Of a stretch of DNA of 64,000 bases, positions 20,030 to 42,279 are shown in pieces. The DNA is from Herbidospora daliensis (GTDB lineage: Bacteria > Actinomycetota > Actinomycetes > Streptosporangiales > Streptosporangiaceae), in the NCBI RefSeq assembly GCF_001570585.1, contig NZ_BBXF01000005.1, positions 682,001-746,000 on the forward strand, read 5' to 3'. The notes under the pieces were generated by a model. It was not told where the DNA came from. It did not search any database and saw only the letters and a program-made list of their open reading frames with translations. The translations under genes were made by a program, and so were the position numbers. Each line of letters begins with the position of its first letter. Position 1 is the stretch's first letter.

Positions 20030-20953
20030 ATGTCATATGACATGTCCCGGTTAAGCCCGAGGTTGCGTCCGGGCGACCGGGTGGCGGTGGTCGCGCCCAG
20101 CGGGCCGGTGTCGCCCGAACGGCTGGCGTACGGCTGCGAGCGGCTGCGGAAGGCCGGTCTCGACGTGGTCGTGGGCGACCACGTGCTGGCCCGGCACGGC
20201 CTGTTCGCCGGCGCCGACGAGCAGCGGGCCGCCGATCTGACCGCCGCCTGGTGCGACGAGCGGGTGCGCGCGGTGCTCTGCGCCCGGGGCGGCTACGGCG
20301 CGCTGCGGCTCCTCGGCCACCTCGACCCGGCCCGGTTCGCCGCCGCCGCGCCGAAGCCGCTGGTCGGCTCCAGCGACGTGACGGTGCTGCACCGCTGGCT
20401 GGCCGAGCACACCGGCGCGGTCGGCCTCTACGGGCCCATGGTGGCCGGCACGGCGCTGGGCACCGGCGACCTCGGCGACCGCTGGGCGGGGCAGCTGATC
20501 CGCACCCTGATGGCGCCCGGCGAGACGCGGCGGCTGCACTGCCCCGGCGCGGTCGAGCTCGTACCCGGGAGGGCCGAGGGCCCGGTGACCGGCGGCAACC
20601 TCAACCTGCTCGCGGCGCTGCTGGGCAGCCCAGAGGCCGGGTCGGCGGCGGGCTGCGTGGTGGTGCTGGAGGACGTCAACAAGGAGGCCCACCGCCTCGA
20701 CCGGCTGTTCACCCAGCTGCTGCGGGCGGGCTGGTTCGACGGCGCGGTCGCGGTGGTGGCGGGCCGGTGGCGGAACTGCGGGCCCGACCCCGATTCGATC
20801 CTGTACGAACGCCTCGCGCCCCTCGGCGTGCCCATTCTGGCCGGGTTCGACGTGGGGCACGGCCCCCGCCAGCTGACCGTGCCCCTCGGCGTCCCGGCGG
20901 TGCTGGACACCGGTGACCGTTCGCTGACCTACACGGTTTCCGCGCTGGCCTGA
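20030..20953 (+). CDS. LD-carboxypeptidase (peptidase family S66)
   Basis: A 307-residue serine peptidase of the muramoyltetrapeptide carboxypeptidase/MccF family. The nucleophile is in the elbow PLVGSSDVTVLHRWL, the catalytic glutamate in VVLEDVNKEAHRLDRLF, and the histidine in GFDVGHGPRQLTVPLG; the N-terminal LRPGDRVAVVAPSGPV is typical. It removes the terminal D-residue from cell-wall tetrapeptides or, in MccF-like members, inactivates peptide-nucleotide antibiotics. The start may be 20030 or the in-frame ATG at 20042; a 10-bp palindrome GTCATATGAC lies directly between them. It is divergent from copy A of the secreted protein. Confidence 0.9.
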   Translation: MSYDMSRLSPRLRPGDRVAVVAPSGPVSPERLAYGCERLRKAGLDVVVGDHVLARHGLFAGADEQRAADLTAAWCDERVRAVLCARGGYGALRLLGHLDPARFAAAAPKPLVGSSDVTVLHRWLAEHTGAVGLYGPMVAGTALGTGDLGDRWAGQLIRTLMAPGETRRLHCPGAVELVPGRAEGPVTGGNLNLLAALLGSPEAGSAAGCVVVLEDVNKEAHRLDRLFTQLLRAGWFDGAVAVVAGRWRNCGPDPDSILYERLAPLGVPILAGFDVGHGPRQLTVPLGVPAVLDTGDRSLTYTVSALA

Positions 20954-21597
20954 ACGCGGAACAGGTCGTCGAGCCCGACCCCGGCCAGCGAGGGCAGCAG
21001 CAGGTCGGCGGCGGCCAGGTCGTGCCCGGCGGTGAGCGGCCCGGGGACCGCCACGCAGCGCAGCCCGGCCGCCTTGGCGGCGGTGACCCCGGTGGCGGTG
21101 TCCTCGATCGCGACGCCCGCCTCCGCCGTCGCGCCCAGGCCGGCCACGGCCGCCAGGTAGACGTCCGGGGCGGGTTTGGCGGCCGGAACGTCGTCGCGGC
21201 CGTACACCCCGGCGAACTGCGGCAGGAGGCCGAGCCGGTCGAGATGGCCGGTCACCCATTCCCGCGACGCGCCCGAGGCGACGGCGGTCGGCACCCCGGC
21301 CGCCCGCGCCTCGGCCAGCAGCTCCCGCACGCCCGGCAGCGCCGGCAGGTCGAGGGCCAGTTCCCGCACCCGCGTGCGGATGCGGAGCAGCGCCGCCAGC
21401 GGGTCGCCGCCGGCGTCGCCGAGGACGTCGGCCACCCGTTCGGGCCGCAGGCTCTGCTGCCCGAGCGTGGCCACGAACGCCTTTTCGTCGAAATGGATGT
21501 CAAGGTCGGCGCACTCGGCGCGCCATCCGGCCACCACCGCCGACTCGGTGTCCATGATCACGCCGTCGAAATCGAAAACGAGAATCCGGTCGGTCAT
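20929..21597 (-). CDS. HAD superfamily phosphatase (beta-phosphoglucomutase-like)
   Basis: A 222-residue HAD hydrolase. Motif I is LVFDFDGVIMDTES with the nucleophilic aspartate, motif II is TAVASGASREW, motif III lysine is in PAAKPAPDVYL, and motif IV is GVAIEDTATGVTAAKAAG. A four-helix cap follows motif I, as in the beta-PGM group acting on small phosphosugars. GGAGG precedes the ATG by 5 nt. It diverges from the 6PGDH-like gene across a 108-bp AT-rich spacer and overlaps the LD-carboxypeptidase 3' end by 25 bp. Shared sugar-phosphate substrates with 6PGDH are possible. Confidence 0.92.
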   Translation of the reverse strand: MTDRILVFDFDGVIMDTESAVVAGWRAECADLDIHFDEKAFVATLGQQSLRPERVADVLGDAGGDPLAALLRIRTRVRELALDLPALPGVRELLAEARAAGVPTAVASGASREWVTGHLDRLGLLPQFAGVYGRDDVPAAKPAPDVYLAAVAGLGATAEAGVAIEDTATGVTAAKAAGLRCVAVPGPLTAGHDLAAADLLLPSLAGVGLDDLFRVQASAETV

Positions 21598-21705
21598 TGT
21601 GCCTCCTATTTCCGGATATGTATATATGCCAATTTGGGCGTGTGTTTGATAACGTCTTGACCGCGACATTTCACCGAGGCCGGGGCGCAGCGTCGGGAGG
21701 ACGAA
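21598..21705. promoter_or_regulatory. AT-rich divergent promoter region, HAD gene and 6PGDH-like operon
   Basis: This spacer is much richer in A/T than its surroundings; 21617-21628 reads ATATGTATATAT. On the minus strand CATATATACATAT could supply the -10 for the HAD gene. For the plus-strand operon a TTGACC is present at 21657. No operator repeat stands out. Confidence 0.35.
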
Positions 21706-22617
21706 ATGGATATCGGGCTGGTGGGACTCGGCCGGATGGGGGCCGGCATCGCACGGCACTGGCTGCGGGACGGTCACCGGGTGGTGGGCCACGACCTCGA
21801 CGACGCGGCGACCGCCGATCTGCTCGGCGAGGGCCTCGAACGGGCCGGCGACCTCGCGGCGCTGATCGCCGCCCTGCCCGCGCCGCGCACCGTGTGGACG
21901 ATGTTGCCGGCCGGTCCGCCGACACGTGAGGTGACCGCCTACCTCGAAGACAATCTCGAACCGGGAGACCTCCTGATCGACGGGGGGAACACCAACTTCC
22001 ACGAGACGGTCGAGCGGGCCGAACGCTGCCGGGAGAAAAGGTTACGGTTCCTCGACGTCGGCACGTCGTCGGGGCTGCTCGGCCGGGCGGAGGGCTACTG
22101 CCTGATGGTCGGCGGCGACCCCGAGCTGGCGGCGGAGACGATGCCGATCCTGCGGTGCATCGCCCCCGAGGGCGGATGTCGGTACGTCGGCCCTTCGGGA
22201 GCCGGCCACTACGTGAAGATGATCCACAACGGCATCGAATACGGGCTGCTCGAAGCCTATGCCGAAGGCTTCGAGGTGCTCAAGGCCAGCACCTACGACC
22301 TCGACCTGCCCGCCATCGCCGAGCTGTGGCGGCACAACAGCCTCGTCCAGTCGCGGCTGCTCGACCTGCTCGCCGGGAAACTCGACTCCGATCCGGAGTT
22401 GTCGAAGTTCTCCGACTACGTCGAAGACCTCGGGACGGGCCGCTGGGCGGTGCTGGAGGCGATCGACCGCAACGTCCCGGCCCCCGCGATGACCGCCGCC
22501 CTGCTGACGCGGCTGCGCTCCCGGCAGGAGACCTCCTTCGGCGGGCAGGTCCTCTCGGCGCTGCGGGAGGAGTTCGGCGGTCACGTCGTCAACCGGCCCC
22601 ATGGACCGGTGGCCTGA
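21706..22617 (+). CDS. 6-phosphogluconate dehydrogenase-like enzyme (decarboxylating, short NAD type)
   Basis: A 303-residue beta-hydroxyacid dehydrogenase. The Rossmann motif is IGLVGLGRMGAGIARHWLRDG, the substrate motif is DGGNTNFHETVERAE, and the catalytic lysine and asparagine are in GHYVKMIHNGIEYGLLEAYAEGF, which is specific for true 6PGDH rather than hydroxyisobutyrate dehydrogenase. The length fits the short Gnd forms. It overlaps the next gene by 17 bp, so it is the first gene of the biosynthesis-like operon. It could supply pentose phosphate or act on a dedicated hydroxyacid. Confidence 0.9.
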   Translation: MDIGLVGLGRMGAGIARHWLRDGHRVVGHDLDDAATADLLGEGLERAGDLAALIAALPAPRTVWTMLPAGPPTREVTAYLEDNLEPGDLLIDGGNTNFHETVERAERCREKRLRFLDVGTSSGLLGRAEGYCLMVGGDPELAAETMPILRCIAPEGGCRYVGPSGAGHYVKMIHNGIEYGLLEAYAEGFEVLKASTYDLDLPAIAELWRHNSLVQSRLLDLLAGKLDSDPELSKFSDYVEDLGTGRWAVLEAIDRNVPAPAMTAALLTRLRSRQETSFGGQVLSALREEFGGHVVNRPHGPVA

Positions 22618-23626
22618 CCCGGAGGTCCGGTTCCGGACCGCCACGACCCTGTCGGACCTGCCCGGCCTCACGCCCGCCGCGTTCGACCCCGACGCGGGCG
22701 CGGCCGGCGCACCGGCCCGGCTGCTCGGCGTCGAGGCCGACGGACGCTGGCGCTGCTCCTACGTCGCGGCGGAATCGGCCGGCGGCCTCGACGCGCTGGT
22801 GCCGCTCTACCGCCCGGCCGGGCGCGTCTGGCCCGACCGGGCCTACACCCCCGACCCGGAGATCGCCCCCGTCCGCTGCCTGCTCGTCGGGGGCGTGTAC
22901 GACCGCCGCACCGCCCTGCACCTGCCCGCGCACCTGGCCCGGGAAGGGCTGCGCGCGGCGGCCCGGATCGCCGTCGAGGAGGACCGCTGCCTGGTCTTCC
23001 CGTTCCTCTACGACCGCGCCCGCCGGATGGTCGACGCCGCCACCGGCGGCCGGGTGCGCTGGGCGGTCGTGGCGCACGAGGCCCGGTTCACGCTCGGCGA
23101 GCCGCCGTCGCGGGTGCGCGGGGTGCTGCGCCGCGACCGGCGGCTGATCGAGCGGGCCGCCACGGCCGTGTCGGTCGTGCCGTGGCGGGACGCCGATCCG
23201 GCCACCGCCGGGCTCGTCGCCGCGCACAACCTGCGGATGGGCGCGTTCGACGACGCCGAGTTCGTGCGCCTGCGCCACGACCAGTGGGCCGCCTGCGAGG
23301 GGGTCGAGGTGATCGTGTTCGACGGCCGCGCCGGGCCGCACCGCGGCGTGCTCACCGCCCTGGTCTGGCGCGGCGGCCTCGAACTGCACGAGATCGGCCT
23401 GCCGCCCTCCGACGACCCGGCCCGGCTGGCGCTCTACCTCGACCTGATCCACCACCGCCCGCACGCGTACGCCCGCGCGCACGGGCTGACCGCCATCCGC
23501 GCGGGCACCGCCGCCCGGACCCCGAAGGCGTCGAGGGGCGCCGTGTTCGAGCCGCTGCACGGCGGCGTGCTCGACGCCGAGAACACCAGGCGGCTCGCGC
23601 GCGGGCCCGAGAGGAGTGACGGATGA
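22601..23626 (+). CDS. Unrecognised protein, possibly Fem/GNAT-like transferase
   Basis: A 341-residue cytosolic protein with no clear family. The C-terminal third resembles a GNAT-fold acyl or aminoacyl transferase: EVIVFDGRAGPHRGVLTALVW, then LYLDLIHHRPHAYARAHGLTAIRAGTAARTPKASRGAVFEPLHGGVL, which is laid out like the late A-x3-G--I-x-G segment of FemAB/BioF2-like proteins. There are no membrane segments. Its start overlaps the 6PGDH gene by 17 bp and its stop overlaps the carrier protein start by 4 bp. In a pathway with a carrier and an ATP-grasp ligase, an amide-forming or acyl-transfer role is plausible but unproven. Confidence 0.7.
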   Translation: MDRWPDPEVRFRTATTLSDLPGLTPAAFDPDAGAAGAPARLLGVEADGRWRCSYVAAESAGGLDALVPLYRPAGRVWPDRAYTPDPEIAPVRCLLVGGVYDRRTALHLPAHLAREGLRAAARIAVEEDRCLVFPFLYDRARRMVDAATGGRVRWAVVAHEARFTLGEPPSRVRGVLRRDRRLIERAATAVSVVPWRDADPATAGLVAAHNLRMGAFDDAEFVRLRHDQWAACEGVEVIVFDGRAGPHRGVLTALVWRGGLELHEIGLPPSDDPARLALYLDLIHHRPHAYARAHGLTAIRAGTAARTPKASRGAVFEPLHGGVLDAENTRRLARGPERSDG

Positions 23627-23841
23627 CCGAGTCAGAGGTGGCCGGCCTGATGGCCGAGATCCTGGAGACCGACGACCTGGCGGCCGACGAGAGCTTCTTC
23701 GAGGTCGGCGGCACCTCGTTCCTGGTGCTGACGCTGATCGCGCGCATCCAGGAGCGCACCGGCGTGACCCTGCGCATGATCGACGTCATCCGCCGCCCCA
23801 CCCCGGCCGGGGTGCACGAACTGGTGGACGGCCGCGCGTGA
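23623..23841 (+). CDS. Free-standing peptidyl/acyl carrier protein
   Basis: A 72-residue carrier protein. The phosphopantetheine attachment site is S32 in FFEVGGTSFLVL, preceded by DESFF and followed by the helix-III pattern RPTPAGVHELV. Its ATG overlaps the upstream stop and its stop overlaps the GTG of the adenylation enzyme, so it is coupled to both. It most likely carries the aminoacyl or acyl group loaded by the neighbouring adenylation enzyme. Confidence 0.92.
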   Translation: MTESEVAGLMAEILETDDLAADESFFEVGGTSFLVLTLIARIQERTGVTLRMIDVIRRPTPAGVHELVDGRA

Positions 23842-25205
23842 CCGTCTGGACCGCCTTCCTGGAACACGCCGAACGCCAACCGGAGCACCCGGCGATCCGC
23901 TCCGACGCCGGGGTCGTCGCCTACGGCGAACTGCGGGCCCGCGCCGACGACCTCGGCTCCTGGCTGGAGCCTTTCCGCGGCGGCCTGGTCGCGCTCGACA
24001 CGGGAGACCCGGCCCTGGGCGCGCTGGCCTATCTGGCCGCCGCCCGCTCCGGCTGCGCGCTGACGCCGCTCAACCAGGACAGCCCGCCCCTGCACCGGGC
24101 GGTTCTGCTGGCGGACGCCCGCCCGGCCGCCGTCCTGCGGCCGGGCAAAACCATGCCGCTCGACGTCGTGCGCGAACCGGGCGTGCCGCGAGCCGGGCTG
24201 GAAGAAGTCGCCTATCTGCTCTACACCTCCGGCTCGACCGGCGGCCCGAAGGGCGTGCTGGTCTCCCATCGGGCGCTGGCCGACCGGCTGACCGGCCTGG
24301 CCGCCGTGCCGGGGCTGCGGGCGGGCCAGGCCATGCTGGCGATGACCGCGTTGTCGTTCGACATCTCGATCGCCGAGCTGCTGCTGCCACTGACCGTCGG
24401 CGGCACCGTGGTCGCCGCCCCGGAGGAAGCCCGTCTCGACCCGGAGATCTTCGCGGCGGCGGTGCGCAGGCACTCCCCCGACGTCGTGCAGGCGACCCCG
24501 AGTTTCTGGCGGCTGGCCGTGGCCGCCGGCTGGCCCGGCGCGCCCGGCGCCGACCTGTGGTGCGGCGGCGAGGAGCTGACCACCACCCTGGCCGCGCACC
24601 TGCTGACCCGGGGCCGCCGCCTCTGGAACGTCTACGGCCCGACCGAGGCGACCATCTGGGCCTCGGCCCACGAGGTCTCCTCCGCCGACGACGTCGCCCT
24701 CGGCGCCGCGCTGCCCGGCAGCGGCCGGTGCCTGTCCCCGGAGGGCGAGATCCTCCTGTACGGCCACGGCCTCGCCCTCGGCTACCTCGACCGGCCCGAC
24801 CTGACGGCCGACCGGTTCCGCCCCCGCGAGACCCCCGACGGCACCCGGCTCTGCTACCACACCGGCGACCGGGGCCGGCTGCGCGGCGACGGCCGGATCG
24901 AGTTCCTCGGCCGCGACGACGACCAGGTCAAACTGCGCGGCCACCGCATCGAGCTCGGCGAGATCGAACGCACGCTGGAGACGCACGAGAGCGTGTCGGA
25001 GGCGGTGGTCGTGGTCAGCGCCCGCGACGACCCGGCCCGCACCCACCTCACCGCGTTCGTCGTCGGCGAGGGCGTGGACGTGCGGAGCCTGCGCCGCTGG
25101 CTGGCCGAACGGCTGCCCGCCGCCATGCGTCCGGCCCGCATCGAACCCGTGGCCGCGCTCCCGAGGACCACCGCGGGCAAGGTCGACCGCCGGGCGTTGC
25201 GGTGA
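23838..25205 (+). CDS. Stand-alone amino-acid adenylation enzyme (NRPS A domain)
   Basis: A 455-residue AMP-forming ligase. Core motifs are A3 LLYTSGSTGGPKGV, A4 LSFDISIAELLLPL, A5 NVYGPTEATIW, A7 YHTGDRGRLRGDGR, A8 EFLGRDDDQVKLRGHRIELGEIE and the A10 lysine in TTAGKVDRRAL. The aspartate in FDIS is the one that holds the amino group, so an alpha-amino acid is expected. Aligning by eye to GrsA gives a pocket code of D-I-A-S-W-G-V-I-W, which I do not recognise. The loop before A6 is shorter than usual. It would activate one amino acid and load the adjacent carrier. Start: GTG overlapping the carrier stop. Confidence 0.92.
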   Translation: MTVWTAFLEHAERQPEHPAIRSDAGVVAYGELRARADDLGSWLEPFRGGLVALDTGDPALGALAYLAAARSGCALTPLNQDSPPLHRAVLLADARPAAVLRPGKTMPLDVVREPGVPRAGLEEVAYLLYTSGSTGGPKGVLVSHRALADRLTGLAAVPGLRAGQAMLAMTALSFDISIAELLLPLTVGGTVVAAPEEARLDPEIFAAAVRRHSPDVVQATPSFWRLAVAAGWPGAPGADLWCGGEELTTTLAAHLLTRGRRLWNVYGPTEATIWASAHEVSSADDVALGAALPGSGRCLSPEGEILLYGHGLALGYLDRPDLTADRFRPRETPDGTRLCYHTGDRGRLRGDGRIEFLGRDDDQVKLRGHRIELGEIERTLETHESVSEAVVVVSARDDPARTHLTAFVVGEGVDVRSLRRWLAERLPAAMRPARIEPVAALPRTTAGKVDRRALR

Positions 25206-26413
25206 CCGGCCCGCTGGCGGTCCTGGTCGCCGACCGCGCCTCCCTGACCCCGGTGGAGATCGTCACGGCCGCCGGGGACGACCTGCCGGTCCTGTTCGTC
25301 CTGGACCACCGGACCGACGACCGCCTGCGCACGGTCGCCGAGGCGCTGGCCCCGACCGTCCACGCCGACTTCGCCGACGCCGAGGGGTGCGCGGCCGTCA
25401 TCGCCGCCGCCGGGGCCGGCGCGGTCACGACGTTCACCGACCGGCTCTGCCCCCTGGCGGCGCGCATCCGCCGCGAACGCTGGCCGGACAAGGAGGAGCA
25501 GCGCCGCCGCCTGGTCGCGGCGGGCGTCTCCCGCGTGCGGTCGGCCGTGCTCGACCACCCGGAGCAGGTCCGGCCCCTCCTGGCCGAGTGGGGCGGCGGC
25601 GTGGTGGTCAAACCGGTCGACGGGGTCGCCAGCGCGCACACCTGGTTGCTCCGCACCCCCGCCGACGTCGACGCGTTCACCGCCGGCCCGCACCGGCTGT
25701 TCGCCGAGGAGTTCGTCGCCGGGTTGCCCGGCACGGCGTCCCTGCCGGCCGACTACCTCTCGGTCGAGCTGGTCGGCCCGCTGGCGTTCGGCACCGACCG
25801 CGCCCCGCTGGCCGCGCCGTGCCGGGAGACCGGGCTGATGTGGCCGACGTCGCGGCCGGAGAGCGTGGTGGCCCGGCTGGTCGCCACGGCCGGCGAGGCG
25901 CTGGCGGCGCTCGGGGCGGGCCCCGGGAGCTACCACGTGGAGCTCAAGCCGGGCGTCGACCGCGACGAGATCATCGAGGTCAACGGCCGGCTGGGCGGCT
26001 TCGTCGCCCGCGCGGCCCGTTACGGCGCCGACGTCGACGTGGGCAGGCTGGCCCTCGACGTCGCGGCCGGCGCCTCCGGAGCACCCGCGTCGATCGCCTG
26101 GCGGCGGTGCGTGGCCGTCATGTTGTTCCCCGCGCCGCAGGGCGCGCGGCGGATCAGCCGGGCCCCCGACCGCCGCAGCCTGGGCCGCCGTCCCGGCGTG
26201 CTGGCCGTCGACGAGGTGCGCGGGGCCGGGGAGCCGTGCGACTGGCGGCGCGGCACCGACGACGCGGTCGCCACGGTCTGGCTGGCGGGCGCAGACCACC
26301 GGGAGCTCTGGGACCGGTTCCGCGACCTGGCCGACCACCTCCACGCGGCGTTCGCGTTCACCGGCGAGCACGGCGAAGCCGTGACCGGGGACTGGCCCGC
26401 ATGCCTGCGGTGA
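25202..26413 (+). CDS. ATP-grasp carboxylate-amine ligase
   Basis: A 403-residue protein. The ATP-grasp fold is seen in WPDKEEQRRRLVAAGVSRVRS, the central lysine strand GGVVVKPVDGVASAHTWLLRT, the hinge LFAEEFVAGLPGT, and the metal-binding glutamate and asparagine in VELKPGVDRDEIIEVNGRLGG. The family forms amide bonds through acyl phosphates, for instance in bacilysin and dapdiamide biosynthesis. GTG start and upstream TGA overlap. It probably joins an amino acid or carboxylate to the carrier-bound or released product. Confidence 0.9.
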   Translation: MTGPLAVLVADRASLTPVEIVTAAGDDLPVLFVLDHRTDDRLRTVAEALAPTVHADFADAEGCAAVIAAAGAGAVTTFTDRLCPLAARIRRERWPDKEEQRRRLVAAGVSRVRSAVLDHPEQVRPLLAEWGGGVVVKPVDGVASAHTWLLRTPADVDAFTAGPHRLFAEEFVAGLPGTASLPADYLSVELVGPLAFGTDRAPLAAPCRETGLMWPTSRPESVVARLVATAGEALAALGAGPGSYHVELKPGVDRDEIIEVNGRLGGFVARAARYGADVDVGRLALDVAAGASGAPASIAWRRCVAVMLFPAPQGARRISRAPDRRSLGRRPGVLAVDEVRGAGEPCDWRRGTDDAVATVWLAGADHRELWDRFRDLADHLHAAFAFTGEHGEAVTGDWPACLR

Positions 26414-27588
26414 CGACCTCGCCCGTGCGCCGCTACGTGGCCGGTTCGTCGGTGTCGGCCTTCGGCAACCAGATGGCGGCCGTCGCGCTGCCGGTGGCGC
26501 TGATCTGGCACGGCGCGAGCGCCGCCGCCCTCGGCGTGGTGCTCGGCGCGGCGATCCTGCCCAAGACGGTGTTCCTGCTGGCCGGAGGCGTGCTCGGCGA
26601 CCGCCTCGACCGCCGGGCCGTGCTCGTCGCAGGCGACCTGCTGATGGCGTCCACCCAGATCGCGACCGCCCTGCTGCTGTGGCACGGCGGCACGAGCCTG
26701 CTGCACCTGCTGGTCCTGGTCCAGATCCTGTACGGCTGCGCCAGCGCCCTGGCCGTGCCCGCGCTCATCGGCGTGCTGCCGCAACTCGTGCCGGTGACCG
26801 GCCTGCAACGGGCCAACGCCGTGTTGCGCACGGCCATGAACACGGCGGCGGTGCTCGGCCCTCCGGCCGCCGCCGGGATCGCGGCCGTCTGGCGGCCGGA
26901 GTGGGCGCTGCTGGCGAACGCGGCCACGTTCCTGGTGTCCGCCGCGGCGGTGGCGGGGCTGCCGCGGCTGTCCGCGCCGGCCGGACGGGCGTCGTTCACC
27001 CGGGAGCTGGCCGAGGGGTGGTCGGTGTTCCGCCGCACCACCTGGGTGTGGCTGATGGTGGGGTCGTTCGCGGTCTACCAGGCCACCGTGCTGCCGGTCG
27101 TCTACGTGCTCGGGCCGCTGATCACCGGAGACGCGGGCGGGTGGGCGGCCGTCCTGACGGCGCGCAGCGTCGGGGCCATCGCCGGGGGGCTGCTGCTCCT
27201 GCGCCGGCGACCTCGCCGGCCGGTCGCGCTGGCGTGCGCGCTGCTGCTGCTCGACGTGCCGTTCCTGCTGGGCCTGACCGCCGGGCTGCCCGTGGTGGCG
27301 CTGGTGTTCGCCTCGGTCGCGGCGAGCGCAGGGCTGGTCGCGGCCGACACGTTGTGGGAGTCGGCGCTCCAGGAGAACGTCGACCCGGCCGTCATCTCGC
27401 GGATCAGCTCCTACGACTGGATGGGGTCGGTGTTCTTCGCCCCGCTCGGCTACCTGGCGGTCGGCGCGGTGGCCGCCGCGGCCGGCACGTCGGCGACCGT
27501 CGTCGCGATCACCGTCGTGCACGCGGTCGTCCATCTGTCCCTCCCGCTGGCCCGGCCGATCCTGGCCGTGCGGCGGGCTCCGTCGTGA
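26401..27588 (+). CDS. MFS transporter, probable product exporter
   Basis: A 395-residue membrane protein with about 10-12 hydrophobic segments. The loop 2-3 motif is LGDRLDRRAVLVAGDLLM, as in DHA3-type drug exporters. An in-frame GTG at 26410 gives the same GTGA overlap that the other genes of this operon use and may be the true start. Position between the ATP-grasp and thioesterase-like genes suggests export of the pathway product and self-protection. Confidence 0.9.
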   Translation: MPAVTTSPVRRYVAGSSVSAFGNQMAAVALPVALIWHGASAAALGVVLGAAILPKTVFLLAGGVLGDRLDRRAVLVAGDLLMASTQIATALLLWHGGTSLLHLLVLVQILYGCASALAVPALIGVLPQLVPVTGLQRANAVLRTAMNTAAVLGPPAAAGIAAVWRPEWALLANAATFLVSAAAVAGLPRLSAPAGRASFTRELAEGWSVFRRTTWVWLMVGSFAVYQATVLPVVYVLGPLITGDAGGWAAVLTARSVGAIAGGLLLLRRRPRRPVALACALLLLDVPFLLGLTAGLPVVALVFASVAASAGLVAADTLWESALQENVDPAVISRISSYDWMGSVFFAPLGYLAVGAVAAAAGTSATVVAITVVHAVVHLSLPLARPILAVRRAPS

Positions 27589-27602
27589 AGAGAGGCTCGA
27601 TC

Positions 27603-28643
27603 ATGGACGACTACCTGCGGTCCCGCTGGCGGCGGATCGCGCCCGGGGCGGGCGACGGCTTCCTGTCCGGCCCCGGCGGCGTGGCGGCGATGGTCGCCTT
27701 CGTGGTGGGCCTCCAGCAGTCGGGCCTCCCGGTCAGCATGCGCGACCTGCTCCGCTCGCCGACCGTGCCGCTGCTGGCGGAGGCCCTGCGGAACCGGCCG
27801 CCCGACGCGCCCGGGGAGTACCCGGCCTTCGCCGACCTGTGGGAGGAGGGCACGTCGGTGTGGTCGTCGGAGGCCGACACGCTGGTGCGGCTCGCCGACG
27901 GCGCGGGCCCGCCGCTGTTCTTCGTGCACACCGGCCTCGGCCAGGTGCGTTTCATGGAAGAGGTCGTGGACGACTTCCGGCGCGGCCGCCCGGTCTACGG
28001 CATCGAGGCCATCGGGCTGCGCGACCGCACCCGCCCCCCGCTGTCGATGGTCGAGATCGCTCAGCAGTACGTCGCCCAGATCCGCCGCGTGCAGCCGCAC
28101 GGCCCGTACACGATCGGCGGGTTCTGCATGGGCAGCCACGTGGCGTTCGAGATGGCCCACCGGCTGGCCGAGGCGGGCGAGGAGGTGCCCGTGCTGGCGC
28201 TGCTGCCGTCGGCGTTCTCCCTCGACGCGGGCGGGGTGAACTCGATCAGGCCGGGCGTGCGGCAACGGCCCGCCGGGACCGGACCCGCCGACCTCTACCT
28301 CGAACGGCTCGCCTACGTGCAGCTCATGTTCGGCGACCTCGACCTGGCGGCGAACCGCGCCGACGTGCTCGCCGTCTTCGAGGAGACGTTCCGGCTCGAC
28401 GGGGTGAAACCGGAGGACCTCTTCTGGCACGCCGTGGTGGCCGCCGCGGGCGCGTTCGCGCAGGAGAACTACGACCCCCGGCCCTACCGGGGACCGGCCC
28501 TGGTCTTCCAGACGGCGCGGACCGCGACCGGCGAGGCCGCCGACTGGTCGCCGGTGGCCCCGAACGCCCGGAACGTCGTGCTCGACGAGGAGGACAGCCT
28601 GGGCCTCATGCGGACCCGGGAGTTCGCCGACGCCGTGGCGTAG
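27603..28643 (+). CDS. Degenerate carrier-thioesterase didomain protein
   Basis: A 346-residue protein. Residues 10-65 resemble a carrier domain (DGFLSGPGGVAAM, then the VSMRDLLRSPTVPLLAEAL end) but the pantetheine serine is replaced by V27 in PGGVA. Residues 95-340 are an NRPS-type thioesterase fold (PLFFVHTGLGQVRFMEEVV, RPVYGIEAIGL, SMVEIAQQYVAQI). The elbow reads GGFCMGSH, so C175 replaces serine. The aspartate after the next strand is replaced (LALLPSAFS), and no histidine is seen where GxH is expected (VVLDEEDSLGLM). It may be a cysteine transferase with a moved triad, or a non-catalytic partner. AGAGAGG precedes the ATG. It ends the operon. Confidence 0.85.
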   Translation: MDDYLRSRWRRIAPGAGDGFLSGPGGVAAMVAFVVGLQQSGLPVSMRDLLRSPTVPLLAEALRNRPPDAPGEYPAFADLWEEGTSVWSSEADTLVRLADGAGPPLFFVHTGLGQVRFMEEVVDDFRRGRPVYGIEAIGLRDRTRPPLSMVEIAQQYVAQIRRVQPHGPYTIGGFCMGSHVAFEMAHRLAEAGEEVPVLALLPSAFSLDAGGVNSIRPGVRQRPAGTGPADLYLERLAYVQLMFGDLDLAANRADVLAVFEETFRLDGVKPEDLFWHAVVAAAGAFAQENYDPRPYRGPALVFQTARTATGEAADWSPVAPNARNVVLDEEDSLGLMRTREFADAVA

Positions 28644-28699: not shown

Positions 28700-29710
28700 A
28701 TGTCCAACCACTTCACCGGCCTCAGCCTCGGCCCGCCCATGGGCGACCAGCGTCTCGACCTGTGCGACCTCTACGCCTTCACCGCGCCCGGCGACCCCGA
28801 CCGGACCGTGCTCATCCTGAACGCCAATCCGAACGCCGACGCCCTGCACCCCGACGCGATCTACCGGATGAACGTCGACACCGACGGCGACCTGCTGACC
28901 GACGTCGCCTTCAGCTGGGTCTTCGGCACGCCGGGGCCCGACGGCGCGCAGACCTACAGCGTCACCATGGCGACCGGCGAGCAGGCCCGCGACCCCGAAG
29001 CGGCCGGCACGCCGATCGTGACCGACGCCGCCGTCTCGTTCGGCCCGCGCGCCAACGTGGTCGAGAGCGGGGCGTACACGGTGGCCGCCGGGAGCCGCAG
29101 CGACGCGTTCTTCTTCGACTTCGACGGCATCAAGAACCTGTTCGACACCAGCGGCAACCGGAACTTCACCGCGCCGCACCTGGGCGGGAAGTCGCCGTGG
29201 ACCGGCGTCGACTCCAACACCACCGCCAACGTCTTCTCGATGGCGATCGAGCTGCCGACCGCCGCGTTGCGGCCCAGCCCGACGCTGCGCGTCTGGGGCC
29301 GGTGCAGCGTGCGGCGCGACGGCGAGCTCGTGCACGCCGACCGCGCCGGGCACCCGTCGATGAGCAGCTTCTTCAACACCGACGACACGAAGGAGGAGTA
29401 CAACGCCAGTGAGCCGGTGCACGACCGCGAGCGGTGGACCGACCAGTTCGTGCACCTGCTGGGCCACACCGGCGGCTACACCGAGGAGGAGGCGCGGGCC
29501 GCGATCGACGACCACGGCCTGCTCCCCGACGTGCTGCACTTCGACCCGGCCAAGCCGGCGTTCTACCCCAACGGCCGCACGTTCACCGAGGACGTCATCG
29601 ACATCCGGGTCGCGTTCCTGACCAGGAACGAGGCCCCGCCCACCGGCCTGTCGCCGCACACCGACACGCTCGACCGGTTCCCGTACCTCGGCGATCCGCA
29701 CATGTCGTGA
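28700..29710 (+). CDS. DUF4331 family protein
   Basis: A 336-residue protein without a signal peptide. The DUF4331 pattern is clear: DQRLDLCDLYAFTAPGDPDRTVLILNANPNA near the start, DVAFSWVFG, and FFFDFDGIKNLFD in the middle, and a conserved end with DVIDIRVAFLTRN. Members of this family are uncharacterised; some are secreted. It follows the thioesterase-like gene by 56 bp and has a weak ribosome site (GCGGAA), so it may be a separate unit. Confidence 0.88.
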   Translation: MSNHFTGLSLGPPMGDQRLDLCDLYAFTAPGDPDRTVLILNANPNADALHPDAIYRMNVDTDGDLLTDVAFSWVFGTPGPDGAQTYSVTMATGEQARDPEAAGTPIVTDAAVSFGPRANVVESGAYTVAAGSRSDAFFFDFDGIKNLFDTSGNRNFTAPHLGGKSPWTGVDSNTTANVFSMAIELPTAALRPSPTLRVWGRCSVRRDGELVHADRAGHPSMSSFFNTDDTKEEYNASEPVHDRERWTDQFVHLLGHTGGYTEEEARAAIDDHGLLPDVLHFDPAKPAFYPNGRTFTEDVIDIRVAFLTRNEAPPTGLSPHTDTLDRFPYLGDPHMS

Positions 29711-29752
29711 AAAAGCAGTGGACGGGGAGCAGCGCGGGCTTGTAGCTTGCCG
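29709..29752 (+). promoter_or_regulatory. Putative WhiB7-like promoter of the leader/monooxygenase transcript
   Basis: An A-rich stretch (GAAAAAG, 29709-29715) lies just upstream of a -35-like TGGACG (29719-29724), with TAGCTT or TGTAGC as -10 candidates 16-18 bp further. An A/T-rich block touching the -35 is the known feature of WhiB7-dependent promoters of antibiotic resistance genes. The hexamers themselves are weak matches, so this is tentative. Confidence 0.35.
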
Positions 29753-29784
29753 TCGACCGTGACACACCCGAGGAGGTGAGACCC

Positions 29785-31321
<1,537 letters not shown>

Positions 31322-41735: not shown

Positions 41736-42059
41736 TCAGTGACCGGCGCCCGCCAGGTTGAGGCCGACCACGCCCGCGAGGATGAGGAAGATCGACACGA
41801 TCTTGAGAGGGCTCACGTCGTCGCCGAGCAGGATCATGCCGAGGGTGGCCGTGCCGACCGCGCCGATGCCGGTCCAGACGGCGTAGGCGGTGCCGACGTC
41901 CAGGCTCTTCAGCGCGACCGCGAGCAGCCCGAAGCTGAGAACGGCGAAGCCGACGAAGGCGACGGCCGGGACGGGCACGGAGAACCCGTCGCTGAGCTTG
42001 AGCGAGTAGGCCATCGCGACCTCGAAGAGACCGGCGGCGATGAGGAGGATCCAGGCCAT
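41736..42059 (-). CDS. Small multidrug resistance (SMR) transporter, SugE/EmrE-like
   Basis: A 107-residue protein with four membrane helices. The membrane glutamate is in AWILLIAAGLFEVAMAYSLKLSDGF, and GTAYAVWTGIGAVGTATLGMILLGDDVSPLKI is the SMR signature. AAGGAG is 6 nt before the ATG. Family members export quaternary ammonium compounds or guanidinium. It is monocistronic. Confidence 0.92.
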   Translation of the reverse strand: MAWILLIAAGLFEVAMAYSLKLSDGFSVPVPAVAFVGFAVLSFGLLAVALKSLDVGTAYAVWTGIGAVGTATLGMILLGDDVSPLKIVSIFLILAGVVGLNLAGAGH

Positions 42060-42122
42060 GACGACTCCTTGTGGGAGCGTCGTCTTGGCGGTCCGGGTAC
42101 GGCGCGTCTCGTCCGGGCGGAT

Positions 42123-42134
42123 CCCGTCGTCGGG
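42123..42134 (-). promoter_or_regulatory. CCCG-ACGA-CGGG hairpin upstream of the SMR gene
   Basis: On the minus strand, 64 nt before the SMR start, a 4-bp stem closes an ACGA tetraloop, the loop of guanidine-II (mini-ykkC) riboswitch hairpins that control SugE-type exporters. That riboswitch needs two such hairpins, and I do not find a second convincing one before the start codon, so the call is weak. Confidence 0.2.
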
Positions 42135-42279
42135 CCGCATCCGGGTCAACGGCCGTGTTACGCGGATGATTCCCCCATCTCACAATTCCGCCGAAACGAT
42201 GGTGAGATCCCGACCCGTCACATTCCGCAGGGTGCCGGACATCTACCAGGTGTCCGACCACCTGCGGCAAGGAGACGCC

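Follow-up and report, generated by a model that had tools for sequence, protein, structure and literature searches.

How could amide bonds be made on a carrier protein where no condensation domain is encoded beside it? The question is raised by a locus of Herbidospora daliensis (Streptosporangiaceae; genome of 8.5 Mb) that lies within a 64,000-nucleotide stretch of contig NZ_BBXF01000005.1 (positions 682,001 to 746,000; hereafter, the window). There, an overlapping run of seven plus-strand genes at 21706-28643 combines a free-standing adenylation (A) enzyme and a free carrier with an ATP-grasp ligase, a protein that we call X, an exporter, a 6-phosphogluconate dehydrogenase (6PGDH) and a thioesterase-like (TE-like) protein. 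We read the locus as a small, horizontally mobile gene cluster for an exported, carrier-assembled amide metabolite and give this reading a probability of about 0.6. The steps, substrates and product class we infer from gene content, gene order, co-inheritance, folds and motifs, all of which the analysis shows.

Extent and inheritance of the cluster

Among 343 Streptosporangiaceae genomes, 5, all of soil actinobacteria, were found to encode a homologue close to X (E below 1e-150), namely that of H. daliensis and those of H. galbida NEAU-GS14, H. sakaeratensis NBRC 102641, H. mongoliensis NBRC 105882 and Acrocarpospora phusangensis NBRC 108782. Gene order is identical in all five: S66 peptidase, HAD phosphatase (opposite strand), pgd, X, carrier, A enzyme, ATP-grasp ligase, major facilitator superfamily (MFS) exporter and TE-like gene. 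The cluster comprises the following features.

20030-20953, + strand: S66 (LD-carboxypeptidase/MccF-like) peptidase; Pfam S66 N and C domains
20929-21597, - strand: HAD-superfamily phosphatase (beta-PGM/YqaB-like); Pfam/NCBIfam
21598-21705, no strand: divergent promoter region of 107-108 bp, conserved in 5/5 clusters
21706-22617, + strand: NAD-type 6PGDH (pgd), extra copy; TIGR00872/NF007161 above cut-off
22601-23626, + strand: X, predicted tandem-GNAT Fem-type aminoacyltransferase; AlphaFold2 (AF2) and Foldseek; 17-bp overlap with pgd
23623-23841, + strand: free-standing peptidyl carrier protein; PP-binding; 4-bp overlap with X
23838-25205, + strand: free-standing A enzyme, GTG start; AMP-binding; 4-bp overlap with carrier
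25202-26413, + strand: ATP-grasp carboxylate-amine ligase, GTG start; NF002563; 4-bp overlap with A enzyme
26401-27588, + strand: MFS exporter (2A0121/DHA3-like); MFS_1; 13-bp overlap with ATP-grasp gene
27603-28643, + strand: carrier-like domain fused to a TE-like domain; Pfam Thioesterase (partial)

The four other genomes keep both order and reading frames, with protein identities of 70-97% and ratios of nonsynonymous to synonymous substitution (dN/dS) that are far under 1 in each gene. The cluster is thus not a chance arrangement, and each of its genes is under purifying selection. An initial annotation of the window had described seven plus-strand genes with overlaps of 17, 4, 4, 4 and 13 bp, all of which were confirmed, and had proposed that they form a single transcription-unit-like cluster, which is supported. 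It had also named in advance, as a check, whether the genes stay together in related genomes; they do. The TE-like gene begins 14 bp after the MFS gene, or overlaps it by 4 bp if the GTG at 27585 is the start.

The left boundary that the annotation had set at 21706 has to be moved. The full cluster spans 20030-28643, and the S66 and HAD genes across the divergent promoter belong to it. Cluster-type S66 (84-92% identity) is confined to the five cluster genomes, apart from one truncated copy described below, and cluster-type pgd (89-96%) to genomes bearing X, while housekeeping paralogues are found throughout: an S66 47-51% identical to the cluster copy in every genome checked (50-51% in the Herbidospora searched), and a 6PGDH at 46-47% identity in all Herbidospora searched. 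Three Herbidospora without X also lack the cluster-type 6PGDH and S66. This confinement shows that the two enzymes belong to the unit. The HAD phosphatase occupies the same place in all five cluster genomes.

A further Acrocarpospora genome (G217, L152:8100-10654) carries a remnant in which a single internal deletion runs from S66 to MFS and all biosynthetic genes are gone. The S66 frame breaks off near residue 88; some 55 bp further along, the MFS gene starts, followed by the TE-like gene, both intact and 79-83% identical to the cluster versions. The remnant indicates that S66 and the TE-like gene mark the two ends of the cluster, and that exporter and TE-like protein were retained where the pathway was lost. 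A GntR-like gene lies immediately upstream of it.

In H. mongoliensis and A. phusangensis two added genes stand between pgd and X, one for a Gfo/Idh/MocA oxidoreductase and the other for a protein of the nucleoside-hydrolase family; no copy of the latter was found in any part of the three remaining cluster genomes. Their presence in two genera suggests that both are ancestral, so that the ancestral form would have had two more enzymes, since lost from the H. daliensis cluster. The odd 17-bp overlap of pgd and X would be explained by that loss. The flanks of the cluster are not uniform among the five genomes, those of H. mongoliensis and A. phusangensis being different. DUF4331 and rifampin-monooxygenase-like genes (28700-31321) were considered as members and rejected, as they lie downstream in the two closest relatives only and not in H. 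mongoliensis or Acrocarpospora. The product of 29894-31321 (+ strand), outside the cluster, is a flavin monooxygenase akin to rifampin monooxygenase (764 bits with NF033145, whose cut-off is 800).

Genes for X, carrier, ATP-grasp ligase, MFS exporter and A enzyme also occur together in three Nonomuraea genomes (G230, G242 and G713), at 28-49% identity. X and carrier genes are always adjacent, in the Herbidospora/Acrocarpospora and Nonomuraea groups alike.

Activation, tethering and proposed amide formation

The carrier, of 72 residues, matches PP-binding with 46 bits (cut-off 20.8) and has its phosphopantetheine serine in a GG(T/S)SF motif in all five clusters. The A enzyme (AMP-binding, 161 bits) aligns with motifs A3, A5, A7, A8 and A10 and retains D235 and K517. 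Its pocket, DIAQWGVIWK, is invariant in the five clusters. The code for glycine is DILQLGLIWK, which the pocket matches at 7 of 10 positions, including D235 and the IWK end. Among structures, LgrA is the best relative of the enzyme, the highest score being that of its second domain, which activates glycine. The pocket thus appears glycine-like, and glycine as substrate is a guess that we make with moderate confidence. A Nonomuraea A enzyme 50% identical to it (G296, L127:12629-14065) has the pocket DIAQWGLIWK (9/10). That enzyme belongs to a different cluster, with carriers and with aldose-epimerase-like and aldehyde-dehydrogenase-like genes, and a distant X homologue lies about 5 kb from it.

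The ATP-grasp ligase gives a weak Pfam match (E 0.07) and matches NCBIfam NF002563 at 9e-12; its K/EE/E/EVNGR motifs (ATP-binding lysine, acidic Mg ligands) are conserved as far as relatives of 28-32% identity. ATP-grasp matches in Streptomyces and other actinobacteria were rejected as relatives of the cluster, most of them lying in unrelated contexts. Also rejected was G321 (L085), an ordinary nonribosomal peptide synthetase (NRPS) cluster with a normal thioesterase.

No condensation domain (PF00668) was found in the whole window, and hence none in the cluster. To this extent the claim of the initial annotation stands, but it does not hold generally, the distant Nonomuraea relatives of the core having one.

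X itself has no Pfam or NCBIfam match, one of its homologues matches Acetyltransf_6 at 5e-4, and PDB sequences searched with a profile of X returned no match. Its AF2 model (predicted local distance difference test score, pLDDT, 82; predicted template modelling score 0.78) was compared by Foldseek and retrieved Orf14 of clavulanate biosynthesis, Sba18/Sbb17, MprF and lipid aminoacyltransferases, and FemX, with E-values down to 3e-10 at 11-14% identity. On this model X is a tandem-GNAT transferase of the Fem/Sba18/MprF kind with two predicted GNAT domains per chain, in agreement with the Fem/GNAT-like assignment made earlier for this gene product. K309, the only lysine invariant in nine X homologues, lies 32 residues from the C-terminus, where by sequence alone the catalytic residue is expected; the key lysines are Lys305 in FemX and Lys329 in DhpH-C (PMC12945691). 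X homologues of 32-34% identity stand beside adenylation genes in Sphaerisporangium album (L032:10070-11092, with an FkbH-like protein nearby) and Actinomadura sp. KC216 (L031:10014-11024, with a P450 and an NRPS), indicating that the X family extends beyond this cluster.

The TE-like protein matches Thioesterase with 61.5 bits, over profile positions 2-99 of 226 only, and its carrier-like N-terminus is without the phosphopantetheine attachment serine. In all six copies the nucleophile elbow GxSxG is replaced by GFC(M/L)GSH, the Asp site reads PSAF, with a proline, and the C-terminal catalytic histidine is missing. It had been called a degenerate thioesterase, and the Ser-Asp-His triad is indeed absent; the protein is not decaying, however, since its dN/dS of 0.20-0.24 (the lowest in the operon except for 6PGDH) and its conserved altered motif indicate conservation for some altered function. 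The gene product annotated earlier as an exporter matches MFS_1 (84 bits), in agreement with that assignment.

A proposed pathway and its alternatives

In the pathway that we propose, the A enzyme would load the free carrier with a small alpha-amino acid that it activates, glycine being the likeliest. The initial annotation had suggested a peptide, amide or aminoacyl-sugar product, likewise by inference. X would make an amide on or from the carrier-bound residue in place of a condensation domain, for which the action of PacB on a PacH-bound peptide is a precedent, and the ATP-grasp ligase would join a free carboxylate and an amine in a second amide step. The altered carrier/TE-like protein might dock, transfer or release the chain via its conserved cysteine. 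From 6PGDH and the HAD phosphatase would come a building block derived from a pentulose or a sugar acid, a sugar-phosphate-derived unit being likely. The MFS protein would export the product, and the S66 peptidase is a candidate for protecting the producer or trimming the product.

Several points weigh against this scheme. The glycine assignment comes from motif alignment only, and the AF2 model of the ATP-grasp ligase was discarded for low confidence (pLDDT 43.5). About 57 condensation-domain matches elsewhere in the genome, the nearest on the same contig some 550 kb off, could act in trans, and a condensation-domain protein accompanies the Nonomuraea core, so X may not be the sole condensing enzyme. 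Furthermore, a lone cluster-type HAD copy (75%) is present in a cluster-free Herbidospora (G101, L151:9244-9900).

A bolder version of the pathway makes X a Fem-fold enzyme with the carrier, not tRNA, as aminoacyl donor, in a tRNA-independent, condensation-domain-free system of A enzyme, carrier, GNAT and ATP-grasp proteins with a sugar-derived amine as acceptor; this we regard as unlikely. It seems quite possible, if short of an even chance, that X depends on aminoacyl-tRNA and, like PacB, adds a residue to the amino group of a carrier-bound amino acid, the carrier being acceptor rather than donor. The characterised natural-product members of the fold named in a recent review all use aminoacyl-tRNA and carry a catalytic lysine (PMC12945691). 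PacB transfers alanine from tRNA to a chain bound to the PacH carrier (PMC4052509), and residues 170-185 of X form an arginine-rich helix like those for which acceptor-stem binding has been proposed. Fold scores, however, put X at least as near to the CoA-type tandem GNAT of clavulanate biosynthesis as to the tRNA users, and no aminoacyl-tRNA-synthetase-like gene lies in the cluster. That clavulanate protein binds acetyl-CoA and is among the matches of X with the lowest Foldseek E-values, as would fit a role of X in decorating the product as an N-acyltransferase dependent on acyl-CoA, the only amide being left to the ATP-grasp ligase. The constant adjacency of X and carrier genes in both groups of genomes and the Fem-like invariant lysine argue against such a role, which we consider distinctly improbable.

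The two extra housekeeping-type enzymes allow another explanation, in which 6PGDH and S66 are not biosynthetic at all but self-resistance versions of the product's targets (the pentose-phosphate pathway; murein LD-carboxypeptidase or MccF-like aminoacyl-nucleotide hydrolysis). Both are inherited with the cluster, and S66 is a known immunity family (MccF). Yet both copies are old paralogues (46-51% identity) rather than recent resistant duplicates, and pgd heads the biosynthetic operon as its first gene. The cluster 6PGDH passes the curated cut-offs of TIGR00872 (314.7 against 297.2 bits) and NF007161 and retains the KxxHN site (KMIHN). Its nearest non-cluster relative among those found (56%) is encoded beside transketolase- and transaldolase-like genes, named from their translations by eye, which suggests descent from a true pentose-phosphate enzyme. 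The S66 protein keeps the Ser, Glu and His positions on alignment with the housekeeping copies; its nearest PDB entry is PA5198 (3e-30), ahead of MccF (2.4e-24), so that it stands nearer to the LdcA type than to MccF. We consider a resistance role for both enzymes unlikely.

Should X prove to use carrier-bound amino acids, it would offer a compact substitute for condensation domains that could be put to use in making amides. Since the cluster is short and almost self-contained and is found in named strains, its product can be sought directly, with the extra 6PGDH and S66 copies as leads to the building block or the target. The TE-like protein, conserved without its triad, poses a separate question of enzyme function.

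Elsewhere in the window, a Guanidine-III riboswitch (Rfam RF01763, 49 bits; 42074-42141, - strand) precedes a gene (41736-42140) for a transporter of the small multidrug-resistance type, as is usual for guanidine exporters.

Comparison with known systems

No described cluster with these parts was found in the open-access literature searched, in line with the initial annotation, although such absence is weak evidence. The Nonomuraea loci share the five-gene core in related order; they differ by an added condensation-domain protein, an A-carrier protein with a valine/isoleucine-like pocket, DAF(F/L)VGATFK, and other enzymes, and neither 6PGDH nor S66 was found in the three loci. A 611-residue protein without a Pfam match (L034:16102-17937; homologues in L094 and L126; Nonomuraea), 92% conserved, adjoins the A-carrier protein and the X/carrier/ATP-grasp core.

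In pacidamycin biosynthesis, as proposed here, a transferase of the Fem/GNAT fold (PacB, with PacH) forms a peptide bond on a carrier-held chain without a condensation domain for that bond (PMC4052509). The present cluster differs in containing no condensation domain and in having an ATP-grasp ligase, 6PGDH, HAD and S66 proteins. The pacidamycin pathway includes many other NRPS parts, condensation domains among them. The BD-12/streptothricin-type Orf11 proteins Sba18 and Sbb17, which rank with the best matches to the fold of X (E 4.8e-10), attach glycine to streptothrisamine at its amino sugar, and the pocket of the A enzyme in the present cluster appears glycine-like as well. Unlike the system described here, they take glycine from Gly-tRNA and have no carrier and A enzyme dedicated to it, and the streptothricin biosynthetic genes are not present in this cluster.

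Dapdiamide and bacilysin clusters resemble this one in forming amides by ATP-grasp enzymes within a small cluster with an MFS exporter, but are not known to have a tandem-GNAT enzyme or the 6PGDH/HAD/S66 set. Butirosin, likened here by description and not by sequence, brings together an ATP-grasp enzyme (BtrJ) and a free carrier (BtrI) in one pathway ending on an aminoglycoside; BtrJ charges the carrier with glutamate, and the pathway is not known to include an A enzyme or a GNAT. The parts of the Herbidospora cluster are thus of known kinds in a combination not found described, and it is best filed as a carrier-based small-molecule pathway that uses a Fem-type GNAT and an ATP-grasp ligase in place of condensation domains.

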